Source of the DNA: a virus
Length of the DNA stretch: 29,894 nt
Reading direction: 5' to 3' (one strand)
IMG/VR virus record: IMGVR_UViG_3300033571_000137
Location: 1-29,894 of that record
Made by a program: the position numbers and the translations under genes. Under the pieces are notes generated by a model, which ran no database searches, was not told where the DNA came from, and was given only the letters and a program-made list of their open reading frames with translations. Positions 7,217 through 26,451 of the stretch are shown piece after piece; position 1 is the first letter of the stretch, and each line of letters opens with the position of its first letter.

Positions 7217-8563
7217 ATGTCAAAAGAAATCATTGAAAAACTGGACGCAATCGAAGCAACCAATGTTGCCAAGATTGAAGAAGTTACTAGCCAAACTCAA
7301 GCCGCTATCGAAGCCGCTAAAGCCGAGTTTGACGAAAAAGTGTCTGCATTGGAAGCTAAAGTTGCTTCTGTGCAAGCCCCCGCAATCATCAAAATCGCTA
7401 AAACAGTTCGCAGCGATGTGAACCGTTCTGTTAAAGAGCAACTGACTCAGTTCTACAAAGCCAACAACCGTGTGGAAAAAGAATTGAAGATGTTTGCCGA
7501 TGACAGCCAATATGATGCTTACTTGAAAGAAGCCTCTGCATTGACCGCTGGCGGTGATGGCAAAGGTGGTCGTACAGCGTATGACCCTACCTTTGTTGCT
7601 TTGCGTTTGGCTAACCCTATGCGCGGCATTTCTCGCACTGTGGCTACCGATGGTTCTAGCTATCAATTCCGTGTCAAAACTGGCAATGCTGGTGCTGCAT
7701 GGGGCTATAGCATCCAGAACAACGGTGCAACCACTACTGAAGACACAACAATTTGGCAATTGGTTTTGCAAGACTTGAACGTACAATTCCCAATCCGTAC
7801 TGCGGCATTGGACGATATTGACGGTCTGGAAGCAAACGTGGTTGACGATATGTTGGTTGAGTTTGCACAATCCGAAGCCCTGTCGATGATTCAAAACAAC
7901 GACCAAGCTGCACAATCTGCTGGCAACCCTTACGGCGGCACTAACGGCTTGCGCGGTCTTGACCAATACGCAGGTGCTAACAGCACTTACACTGGCGGTA
8001 CATCTTCCACAGCGGCATTTGGCACAACTGGCACTGGTTCCTCAAGCGGTTTGCACAGCTTGGCTACTTATGACCAATTGACTTCTAACGTCAACACTGT
8101 GGGCGCTAACGCAATCACATACAAAGACGTTATCAACACAATCTACGCCTTGCCACAACAATATTGGACTCCTAACACCAAATTCATGGTGAACCCAATC
8201 TTGGCACAAGCAATCCGTGGTCTGCAAGATACCAACGGTCGTCCAATCTTCAACTCTGTTGAATCATTGAACCCCGATGGCATCATTGGTCAGATGTTGG
8301 GCTTTGACGTTGTGATGAACAAGTATTTGGACAACCCATCGCAAGCTACAGTCGGTGCTGCTGGCACAACCAGCCTGTACCCAATGTATTTTGCTGATTG
8401 GTCGCGTTTCCACACAATCGTTGATCGTTTGAACATGGTTATGCGCCGTTACGACCAGACATTGCCAGGCTACATCACCTTCTTCGGTGAGAAGCGTTTG
8501 GCTACATCTGTGCGTGACCCTAACGCTGGTGTGCGCTACCGAAGCACAGGCACAGCAAACTAA
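7217..8563 (+). CDS. major capsid protein 1, HK97 fold, with delta domain
   Basis: This 448-residue shell protein begins with a charged, coiled-coil delta-like scaffold (about 1-104, rich in K/E/A). The HK97 core starts near EASALT (105-110) and continues with GGRT, LRLANPMR, a TGNA strand, QFPIRTAALDD, a spine helix (EFAQSEALSMIQNNDQA), GGTNGLRGL, ADWSRF near the end and EKRLATSVRDPNAG. A protease site just before the core (YLK/EAS) would mimic HK97 cleavage after a Lys; this is inference. The codon choice looks uniform and suited to high expression. A strong intrinsic terminator lies 10 bases after its stop. A paralogue follows at 9149-10177. Confidence 0.93.
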   Translation: MSKEIIEKLDAIEATNVAKIEEVTSQTQAAIEAAKAEFDEKVSALEAKVASVQAPAIIKIAKTVRSDVNRSVKEQLTQFYKANNRVEKELKMFADDSQYDAYLKEASALTAGGDGKGGRTAYDPTFVALRLANPMRGISRTVATDGSSYQFRVKTGNAGAAWGYSIQNNGATTTEDTTIWQLVLQDLNVQFPIRTAALDDIDGLEANVVDDMLVEFAQSEALSMIQNNDQAAQSAGNPYGGTNGLRGLDQYAGANSTYTGGTSSTAAFGTTGTGSSSGLHSLATYDQLTSNVNTVGANAITYKDVINTIYALPQQYWTPNTKFMVNPILAQAIRGLQDTNGRPIFNSVESLNPDGIIGQMLGFDVVMNKYLDNPSQATVGAAGTTSLYPMYFADWSRFHTIVDRLNMVMRRYDQTLPGYITFFGEKRLATSVRDPNAGVRYRSTGTAN

Positions 8564-8573
8564 AAATTGCCTT

Positions 8574-8605
8574 AAGGTGGGGGGAGAAATCCTCTCACCT
8601 TTTTT
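8574..8605 (+). terminator. strong rho-independent terminator after capsid gene 1
   Basis: A 12-bp stem runs from 8574-8585 to 8590-8601, with two G-U pairs (8580/8595 and 8582/8593), and encloses a GAAA tetraloop at 8586-8589. The 3' arm runs into a T tract (8600-8605). A GNRA loop plus a T tract is the classical intrinsic terminator design. It separates the highly expressed first capsid gene from the endonuclease ATG only 4 bases further on. Confidence 0.88.
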
Positions 8606-8609
8606 CAAG

Positions 8610-9152
8610 ATGTTTTATACATACATTCATTTTCGTAAAGATTCTGGAGTACCTTTTTATATAGGAAAAGGTCAAAATAATCGTCTTTTTACGAAAACGA
8701 AAAGAAATACATATTGGAAAAATATTGTAAAAAAACATGGATTTAATGCTGAAATTTGCAGTAATTGGAAAACAGAACATGAAGCGTTAGAGCATGAAAA
8801 ATTTTTAATTGCTTGTTTTAAGGATATTGGAATACCATTGGTAAACATGACAGATGGCGGTGAAGGAACATCTGGTTGGATTCCAAGTGAAGAATGGAGA
8901 AAGAAAAAAAGCAAATCACAAAAAGAAAATTTTGTGAATCCAATGTTGAATGAAAAAAGTAAAATTAAACAAATAAATTCAAGATTAGGAAAATCACATT
9001 CTGAACAACATAAGATAAATATTGGTAAAGCAAGTCTCGGAAACAAAAGTAGAACAGGCTTAAAAAATTCAGTTGCATCTAATTTAAAAAGAGCAATTAC
9101 CATGAAAGCAATTTGGGAAGCTAAAAAATTGTCCACCAAGGAAAAACCATGA
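8610..9152 (+). CDS. free-standing GIY-YIG homing endonuclease with NUMOD3 repeats
   Basis: This 180-residue protein opens with YTYIHF and FYIGKG, the two strands of the GIY-YIG nuclease, with R25, E63 (LEHEKFLI) and N79 (VNMTDGGEG) in the positions of the family's catalytic and structural residues. From about residue 90 there are NUMOD3-like DNA-binding repeats (SEEWRKKKSKSQ, GKSHSEQHKINIGKASLG). The gene is clearly more AT-rich than both neighbours, a sign of foreign origin. The ATG at 8610 is chosen because longer versions would read through the terminator and the capsid gene. There is no visible Shine-Dalgarno, and the start lies right after the terminator hairpin, so expression is probably low. 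Its stop overlaps the ATG of the second capsid gene. Confidence 0.88.
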   Translation: MFYTYIHFRKDSGVPFYIGKGQNNRLFTKTKRNTYWKNIVKKHGFNAEICSNWKTEHEALEHEKFLIACFKDIGIPLVNMTDGGEGTSGWIPSEEWRKKKSKSQKENFVNPMLNEKSKIKQINSRLGKSHSEQHKINIGKASLGNKSRTGLKNSVASNLKRAITMKAIWEAKKLSTKEKP

Positions 9153-10177
9153 CCATCACCGAAAACATCCTCACAGGCATTAAGCAAACACTAGAGACAG
9201 GCGATCAAGTCAAAATTGACTTACGCGAAGCGTCTGCAATCACAGGCTCTGGTAATGGGGTTGGTGGTCGCACTTATTTTGATGATGCATTTGCCGCTTT
9301 GCGTATTGCTAACCCAATTCGCAAATTTGCAAGGGTAATCCCTGCATCTGGTTCAAGCGTTCAGTTTGTAGCTAAGACGGGTAATGCCGCAAGCCCAACT
9401 AATCCTTGGACATACACTTTTACGCCTAACACTGGCTCGCCAGATACCGACACAAGCATTTGGCAGTTGCCAACTCGCGTGATCACGGCTCAATTGCCAA
9501 TCCGATCAGCGGTAATGTCTGATGTGAACTATTTGAACGAAACAATCGTAGAAGATTTGGCTATGGAATTTGCGTCTATTGAAGGCGCATCAATGGTTTT
9601 AAACAACGATCAAGCTGGTTCTGTAACCACTACAACAGGCGGTACAAACGGCTTGCGTGGCTTGAATTTCTACACAAGCGCGGCGGCTTCTGCTTATGGC
9701 ACAAGCGGCAACGCAATTACTGATGGCATACACTCAATTGCTACAGTGACACAAGGCGCGGCGGCTATTACGTATTCCGACCTTACTGACATGGCGCGTC
9801 TGTTCCCGCCACAGTATTGGAATTCGCCAAATGTGGCTTGGATGATGCACCCACAGACAATTCACAATTTGCGTAACCTTGGCGGCGCTGCTGTCATTAA
9901 ACAATTTGCTGAAGTTGGCGATGGCGATGGCGGTGCAGTCACGCATATGTTTGGATTCCCTGTTATTCCTAACTCCAACATAAGTTTGGTAGGTGCAGGT
10001 AATTTCAGCGTCTACTTGGCAGACTGGTCGCGCTTTATGACGATTGCCGATGTGGAAGAAATCACCGTTCAGGCAATGGAACAAACAACGCCTGGCTTTG
10101 TAACTTTATATGCTGAGAAGCGTTTAGTGTCAACTGTTCGTGACCCGTTTGCTGGTATTCGTTTAGTCGGGGTTTAA
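9149..10177 (+). CDS. major capsid protein 2, HK97 fold, no delta domain
   Basis: This 342-residue paralogue of the first capsid protein shares EASA(L/I)T, GGRT, LR.ANP.R, TGNA, PIR.A, E.A...NNDQA, GGTNGLRGL, AITY.D, QYW, GF.V, ADWSRF.TI and EKRL...VRDP.AG in the same order. It begins only 26 residues before the common core, whereas protein 1 has 104, so it lacks the delta scaffold. It resembles an already mature subunit and might form pentons, as T4 gp24 does beside gp23, or minor shell positions. A good ribosome site (AAGGA) precedes the ATG, which overlaps the endonuclease stop. No inactivating lesions are seen. Divergence is substantial, so the duplication is not recent. Confidence 0.92.
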   Translation: MTITENILTGIKQTLETGDQVKIDLREASAITGSGNGVGGRTYFDDAFAALRIANPIRKFARVIPASGSSVQFVAKTGNAASPTNPWTYTFTPNTGSPDTDTSIWQLPTRVITAQLPIRSAVMSDVNYLNETIVEDLAMEFASIEGASMVLNNDQAGSVTTTTGGTNGLRGLNFYTSAAASAYGTSGNAITDGIHSIATVTQGAAAITYSDLTDMARLFPPQYWNSPNVAWMMHPQTIHNLRNLGGAAVIKQFAEVGDGDGGAVTHMFGFPVIPNSNISLVGAGNFSVYLADWSRFMTIADVEEITVQAMEQTTPGFVTLYAEKRLVSTVRDPFAGIRLVGV

Positions 10178-25183: not shown

Positions 25184-25396
25184 ATGCCAAAACAATTCCT
25201 ACTAAACGCAGATGGTTCTATTCCAGCCAACGTAAATGTTGAAGCATTACAAGCCGCTAATATTCCTTTAGTATTGCCTACGCCTATGCCAAGAGAAAGC
25301 GGTATGGTTGCTGTTGAGCAAGAGCCGCAACAGATTGATGGCGTATGGAAACAAGTTTGGACATTAGAGCCTTTTATTGAAAATTCACAAGAATGA
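25184..25396 (+). CDS. small fibre-linked protein, putative tail fibre chaperone
   Basis: This 70-residue protein follows the collagen fibre by 9 bases. Its pattern 'KQFLLNADGSIP.NVNVEALQAANIPLVLPTPMPRE.GMVAVEQEPQQIDGVWKQVWTLEP' recurs after fibre genes in many phages of Proteobacteria and resembles a short fibre assembly or virion-associated protein. Its end overlaps the glycosyltransferase start by 4 bases (ATGA). Confidence 0.65.
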   Translation: MPKQFLLNADGSIPANVNVEALQAANIPLVLPTPMPRESGMVAVEQEPQQIDGVWKQVWTLEPFIENSQE

Positions 25397-26451
25397 AAAT
25401 AGCCGTTTACGCAATCAGTAAGAATGAAGAACAGTTTGTAGAACGGTTCTGTAAGTCAGCCAAAGACGCAGACATTATTTTGATTGCTGACACTGGCTCA
25501 ACAGATAAAACAGCAGAGCTTGCAAAGAAGCATGGCGCTGTTGTCTATCCAATCTGCATCAATCCTTGGCGCTTTGACAAAGCAAGAGACACGGCCCTTG
25601 CGCTTCTACCTGCTGACATTGATGTTTGTATCAGCCTAGACTTAGATGAAGTTCTAGAAGATGGCTGGCGAAAAGAGATTGAGCGCGTCTGGACAGCAGA
25701 AACAACCCGTCTACGATATAAATTTGATTGGGGCTGTGGCATTTCTTTCTTTTACGAGAAGATTCACCACCGCAAGGGTTATCACTGGCATCACCCTGTT
25801 CACGAATACCCAAGGCCAGATGGCAGGACAAACGAAATCTATGCCCACACGGATATGTTTTTGGTCAGCCATCACCCTGACCCAACCAAGTCCCGTGGTC
25901 AATATATGCCGTTACTTGAACTGGCGGTCAAAGAAGACCCTAAATGCCCAAGAAACGCCTTCTATCATGCGCGTGAACTTACCTTTCATTCAAGATGGCA
26001 AGAAGCTATTGACGCGCTAAACAAGTACTTGGCTATGCCAGAAGCTACTTGGGAAAACGAGCGATGCTATGCAATGCGTCTTTTAGGGCAAGCCTATGCT
26101 GAAATAGGCAATAATGATGAATCGTTAAAGTGGCTGCGTAGGGCTACGGCAGAGGCTCCAAACACCCGTGAACCTTGGGTAGACTTGGCAATGGCGGCAT
26201 ACCGCAGGGAAATGTGGCATGAAAGCCTATCCGCTGCAATGACAGCTTTAGAAATTAAAGACAAAACCCTTGTTTACACAATGGAACCAAGCGTGTGGGG
26301 CGCTAAACCTTATGACTTGGCTGCTATTGCGGCTTGGCGCTTAGGCATGAAAGAAATGGCCCGTGTACTTTGTCAAAAAGCAATAGAATTAGAACCCACA
26401 GATTCAAGGCTATTACAAAATTTGGAGTTAATGACAAATGCCAACGATTGA
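25393..26451 (+). CDS. GT2 glycosyltransferase with C-terminal TPR repeats
   Basis: This 352-residue cytosolic protein has an N-terminal GT-A domain with 'YAISKNEEQFVERF', DTGSTDKT (33-40) and the metal-binding DxD in SLDLDEVL (D83, D85), followed by about four TPR-like helix pairs (about 190-345, e.g. WQEAIDALNKYLA, LGQAYAEIGNNDESLKWLRRATAEAPN). This combination is typical of GT2-TPR proteins that transfer a sugar onto a protein or polysaccharide. It sits between fibre and lysis genes, so virion glycosylation or host surface modification are both possible. Its stop overlaps the next small gene. No truncation seen. Confidence 0.87.
   Translation: MKIAVYAISKNEEQFVERFCKSAKDADIILIADTGSTDKTAELAKKHGAVVYPICINPWRFDKARDTALALLPADIDVCISLDLDEVLEDGWRKEIERVWTAETTRLRYKFDWGCGISFFYEKIHHRKGYHWHHPVHEYPRPDGRTNEIYAHTDMFLVSHHPDPTKSRGQYMPLLELAVKEDPKCPRNAFYHARELTFHSRWQEAIDALNKYLAMPEATWENERCYAMRLLGQAYAEIGNNDESLKWLRRATAEAPNTREPWVDLAMAAYRREMWHESLSAAMTALEIKDKTLVYTMEPSVWGAKPYDLAAIAAWRLGMKEMARVLCQKAIELEPTDSRLLQNLELMTNAND

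Follow-up and report, generated by a model that had tools for sequence, protein, structure and literature searches.

The comparisons reported here, all made at the level of sequence, indicate that the gene lying between the two capsid genes of this phage encodes a mobile, functionally maintained, free-standing homing endonuclease with predicted cleavage activity, and that in this mostly uncultured phage family the gap between the capsid genes is apparently a repeated landing site of the homing endonuclease gene (HEG). The family offers a natural, well-sampled system of occupied and empty alleles (five and ~100, respectively) for the analysis of intronless homing outside T4; a sharply bounded, one-sided tract suggests a candidate cut site, and the position parallels that of T4 segD. 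The results also do away with an attractive but mistaken connection between homing and capsid duplication.

The HEG between two intact capsid genes

The window, i.e. the whole stretch of DNA analyzed, is a complete virus record of 29,894 bases. Its HEG is an ORF of 180 aa on the + strand (8610–9152, with ATG at 8610 and TGA ending at 9152), preceded by the gene for MCP1, an HK97-type major capsid protein of 448 aa (7217–8563, + strand), and followed by that for MCP2, a paralogous capsid protein of 342 aa (9149–10177, + strand). Both are intact Phage_capsid proteins with 40% mutual identity, and both ORFs are complete and unbroken by the HEG. The GC content is 0.28–0.30 inside the HEG (29% overall) vs. 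0.45–0.50 in its flanks (~47% for the neighbourhood). An endonuclease encoded by a group I intron or an intein was considered and rejected: the HEG is intergenic, its neighbours are uninterrupted with no intron or intein around it, and an Rfam search of the window matched no family and no intron. The original prediction of an AT-rich GIY-YIG gene, neither intron nor intein, between two intact capsid genes is thus borne out by the ORF, its composition, and the protein family and fold described below. All ~100 distinct relatives, like Methylophilaceae phage P19250A, retain the two tandem HK97 paralogues; an N-terminal extension of about 80–100 aa is found in MCP1 only.

The HEG protein matches PHROG 314 ('homing endonuclease') with an E value of 1.6e-17. 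It falls below threshold for both the Pfam GIY-YIG and NUMOD3 families; searching the window record for Pfam GIY-YIG, or the PDB with the protein by phmmer, also gave no useful match. An alignment of 45 family members taken from viral contigs includes 25 with NUMOD3 (PF07460), 11 with LEM-3-like GIY-YIG and 5 with GIY-YIG matches. Of the label GIY-YIG/NUMOD3 originally given to the gene, the first half is upheld by residues and fold; NUMOD3 is matched by many other family members, and the window protein itself has no match to it at E 0.01. In the 45 aligned sequences Y5, Y17, G19, E63 and N79 never vary, and R25 has a conservation of at least 90%; we take these six to be the GIY-YIG catalytic positions, as in I-TevI and UvrC. 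An AlphaFold2 model has pLDDT values of 88–97 over the first 80 residues (in blocks of ten), and GIY-YIG enzymes (PD-T4-3, UvrC and I-TevI, 1ln0, among them) account for each of its best 11 PDB matches, at E values of only 0.02–0.65 and none <0.001. Catalytic residues and predicted fold both fit, and on these grounds the protein is assigned to the GIY-YIG superfamily, with a GIY-YIG domain at approximately residues 1–80 and a helical, NUMOD3-like putative DNA-binding tail at ~90–177.

Upstream of the HEG lies a terminator-like element consisting of a 12-bp hairpin and a T run (8574–8605, + strand); this stretch has a folding energy of -22.5 kcal/mol (z -3.9), and the gap of HEG-free relatives almost always contains a GC-rich hairpin with a T run behind it. 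The hairpin and T run are retained in relatives while the sequence varies freely, and the conserved hairpin may set the MCP1:MCP2 ratio. The HEG start codon is located 4 nt 3' of the T run, with no Shine-Dalgarno sequence directly upstream; HEG expression is probably weak and dependent on MCP1 read-through, a mode also proposed for several HEGs of T4. At the 3' junction (9130–9152, + strand) a probable MCP2 ribosome-binding site, AAGGA, lies inside the HEG frame, and the HEG stop codon TGA overlaps the MCP2 start codon in the ATGA at 9149–9152, so that translation of MCP2 may be coupled to that of the HEG.

Empty junctions and the altered end of MCP1

Loci of relatives were collected by searches with MCP1 or MCP2 and then tabulated; the two genes are in tandem in every relative whose contig reaches far enough. 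The empty site that the original prediction proposed to look for is present in 101 distinct relatives, in which the MCP1/MCP2 gap is just 53–67 bp and contains no HEG, and the nearest of these (L160/L082 and L081) have ~90% nucleotide identity to the window across nine genes. An orthologous HEG (63–66% amino acid identity) occupies the same junction point, directly after the T run, in L001–L005; as L002 and L003 are near identical, there are five distinct carriers (the window, L001, L002, L004 and L005). In L002–L005 the HEG stop codon TAG falls within what appears to be the native MCP2 leader (AATTTAGGAACTG) and the right junction is clean; in the window and L001 the HEG extends up to the MCP2 start codon and encloses the probable MCP2 ribosome-binding site.

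In four of the five carriers the last 8–9 codons of MCP1 are unusual, and MCP2 lacks such codons. In the window the foreign-looking tract comprises the last eight MCP1 codons (TAC CGA AGC ACA GGC ACA GCA AAC; 8537–8560, + strand), with synonymous codons that are rare in empty relatives. Each carrier was compared with its nearest empty relative over the last nine aligned MCP1 codons and over other stretches of nine codons. The number of differences in the 27 nt of the tail is 8 for window/L160 (mean elsewhere, 2.2), 9 for L004/L215 (2.6), 9 for L005/L115 (3.3) and 7 for L002/L216 (2.5), and L001 shows no excess in the tail relative to the relatives available. Eight or more differences are seen in 2.6% of empty–empty pairs (n=196). 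The boundary is sharp for window/L160, where eight of the 12 mismatches in the last 30 MCP1 codons fall in the final eight. When scored by codon rarity, the last-nine-codon region ranks first in all of MCP1 and MCP2, and the start of MCP2 gives no tract signal; none of 20,000 random groups of five was as extreme, a figure that serves as a guide and not as a formal probability, given that such groups are phylogenetically non-independent.

A drop in synonymous divergence near the insertion had been proposed as a check. Against the nearest empty relative there is no drop; divergence instead rises sharply in the last 8–9 codons of MCP1 and not in MCP2. Between the carriers L004 and L005 the drop does occur, with one mismatch in the 27 nt of the tract vs. 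a mean of 6.3 elsewhere. The tract of the window shows no special similarity to those of the other carriers, and no exact match to it was found elsewhere. In a search of the viral collection, the pattern CGNWSNACCGGGACAGCNACSTAAA matched just the five contigs already known as carriers, from which it had been designed. As a carrier-only signature the tract fails in its TAC-CGN-AGC form, since these codons are native in a distant empty clade (L238, L241–L247, L251–L253), and such phages may thus have been tract donors; the GGG/TAAA form is carrier-only so far. A general codon constraint on the MCP1 3' end of empty phages was likewise rejected, as the stretch is not among the most constrained, and conspicuous codon preference is limited to codon -9 (TAT) and codon -2 (ACC). 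Codon -9 (Tyr; 8537–8539 in the window) is TAT in 98 of 101 empty relatives, and TAT makes up 4–74% at other MCP1 Tyr codons. From these patterns we infer that the MCP1 tail is a short, one-sided tract resembling co-conversion, with the cut at or upstream of the hairpin. The expectation of local gene conversion near the HEG is accordingly retained for one flank, the MCP1 tail, and finds no sign on the MCP2 side.

The reading in which we have high confidence is that the HEG encodes a mobile, free-standing GIY-YIG endonuclease spreading by intronless homing, in which cleavage, cut position and homing in mixed infection are predicted steps. When a carrier and a related phage without the insertion infect one cell, the enzyme would cleave the DNA of the latter around the MCP1/MCP2 junction; the likeliest place is close to the 3' end of MCP1, on the upstream side of the HEG insertion point. 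Recombination repair off the carrier would then bring in the HEG and, on its left, a short flank made up of ~9 terminal MCP1 codons plus the hairpin. The junction would be a permissive niche, in which insertion downstream of the terminator-like hairpin and upstream of the MCP2 ribosome-binding site breaks no gene, and the HEG 3' end would either supply or borrow that ribosome-binding site. Points against homing are that there are only five distinct carriers and that L001 has no tract excess; for the window HEG taken by itself, losses from an older insertion are a possible history. T4 free-standing enzymes usually cut at least hundreds of bp from their own gene, and the cut could therefore lie elsewhere.

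The MCP1-tail codons might instead represent recoding selected against the phage's own enzyme, the target being the 3' end of MCP1, an explanation that is compatible with homing and that we regard as possible but doubtful. It would account for the fact that four of the five carriers changed most of the last eight codons, mainly synonymously, and that codon -9 is TAC in four of the five carriers vs. three of 101 empty relatives. However, no substitution is common to all five carriers, L001 retains TAT CGC TCC, the occurrence of TAC CGT AGC as native codons in the distant empty clade fits transfer from a donor, and the near identity of the L004 and L005 tracts is as copying predicts. Co-conversion and recoding for self-immunity are not mutually exclusive for the MCP1 tail. 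Should the HEG be aimed at the coding end of MCP1, with carriers made immune by a swapped synonymous tail, the result would be marker exclusion at the capsid locus among co-infecting two-capsid phages, and the junction between a capsid gene and its paralogue would be a recurrent GIY-YIG niche (cf. T4 segD); this is a speculation to which we lend little weight at present.

Mobility, selection and the wider family

Trees were calculated from MCP1 with the tail codons removed and separately from MCP2. On each the five carriers are scattered, and the supported branches cannot be reconciled with fewer than five changes in HEG presence. Between L004 and L005 the HEG has 91% nucleotide identity vs. 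69–81% for nine neighbouring genes; between L002 and L005 the values are 86% and 61–76%. The closest carrier to L004 is L005 by HEG and L002 by MCP1 and MCP2. Occupied and empty alleles thus exist at one site, and the HEG tree is discordant with its neighbours; by these comparisons the HEGs of L002, L004 and L005 have undergone horizontal transfer. For the window HEG synonymous sites are saturated with respect to the other orthologues (dS ~2 or more), and the case for its own recent arrival therefore rests on its absence from close relatives.

That same saturation, which makes the divergence of the window HEG about as old as the phage lineages, and the presence of all five distinct orthologues at exactly one junction would suit an ancestral junction resident, transmitted by descent with many losses and no homing. 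We consider such a history unlikely, because the HEG identities of the L004–L005 and L002–L005 pairs exceed those of every neighbouring gene, the HEG grouping conflicts with that of MCP1 and MCP2, and at least five changes per tree together with ~100 empty relatives would demand many precise losses.

It is similarly improbable that the HEG is a degenerate, inactive remnant, to which its AT-richness, the weak Pfam score, the lack of a clear ribosome-binding site and a start just after the terminator-like hairpin might point. The ORF is full-length with every catalytic residue present, and dN/dS is 0.10–0.12 (i.e. ~0.1) for the HEG pairs with unsaturated dS, which argues that purifying selection has kept the protein functional.

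Other GIY-YIG genes of the broader family are located at other junctions in related phages, namely TerL/portal (L106/L206), upstream of portal (L091), adaptor/next gene (L088) and downstream of MCP2 (L240), and a HEG relative with 61% identity is present at another locus in an unrelated phage (L006). The broader family is thus not tied to capsid genes, and a general link between such endonucleases and capsid duplication falls away to that extent; the orthologous subclade is confined to the MCP1/MCP2 junction.

Capsid duplication and comparison with known systems

The tree of MCP1 and MCP2 sequences consists of two fully supported clades, each containing its counterpart from P19250A; the capsid genes were thus duplicated before the sampled family diversified, with no tie to the HEG at this junction. 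The original suggestion that MCP2 was brought in, or is kept, by the HEG through co-conversion of flanks can draw on the facts that the HEG adjoins MCP2 and that a flank tract exists, but it is extremely improbable, since the duplication predates the split from P19250A, ~100 HEG-free relatives retain both genes, the tract spans ~24–27 nt of MCP1 and none of MCP2, and the MCP1/MCP2 junction is no unusual breakpoint. The correlation of pairwise distances across that junction is 0.44, within the range of 0.23–0.73 for neighbouring junctions, and its candidacy as a special recombination boundary was rejected. The further suggestion that the enzyme attacks phages with a single MCP was not supported, no such relative being found among the collected loci; the phages naturally exposed to it would be those that have both MCP genes and no insertion at the junction. 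By analogy with the relation of T4 gp24 to gp23, MCP2 may function at the vertices or as a minor capsid protein.

The closest parallel in position is T4 segD, which lies between the major capsid gene 23 and the vertex-protein gene 24 and also encodes a GIY-YIG enzyme (PMC2988022). Both genes are free-standing, lie between capsid paralogues and are near terminators; the likeness is one of position. However, segD is antisense to its neighbours and uncharacterised, whereas the window HEG is co-oriented and overlaps the start of MCP2, with many empty sites in relatives and a tract in one flank. For other T4 Seg enzymes intronless homing, co-conversion and marker exclusion are documented, and T4 HEGs are described as promoterless cassettes with cleavage sites away from the gene, terminators nearby and translation initiation signals missing (PMC2988022). 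The window HEG resembles segF, segG and segB in being a free-standing GIY-YIG gene in an intergenic gap with apparent flank co-conversion, but differs in that their cleavage has been measured and its own is predicted, and in that its tract is very short and one-sided. Nuclease genes have also been found at the boundaries of genetic exchange between phages (PMC10448857). The window element fits this known kind of free-standing HEG; its novelty lies in the phage family that carries it, in the large number of empty sites, and in a tract that is narrow and confined to one side.

By tblastn the protein has 35–38% amino acid identity to homing endonucleases of, for example, Enterococcus phage VRE9 and Synechococcus phage S-SRM01; these PHROG 314/NUMOD3 proteins share its family but belong to other phages and other loci. 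P19250A (KX815270) is the sole annotated phage matched by both capsid proteins (63% and 52% identity) and has the same tandem MCP1–MCP2 order and head module; unlike in the window, its junction is empty (77 bp, with a hairpin and no HEG).

Elsewhere in the window, reading of the sequence shows a DNA methyltransferase-like gene (1038–2240) followed directly by an HNH-like nuclease gene (2221–2637) and, among the late genes, a gene (25393–26451) for a glycosyltransferase-like protein with TPR-like repeats, which has a 59% relative in L025. A scan of bacterial genomes returned six loci in metagenome-assembled bins with very different taxon labels, which give no basis for a host assignment; the bins holding family contigs L232–L236 are labelled as different bacteria and even an archaeon, and are thus probably contaminated.
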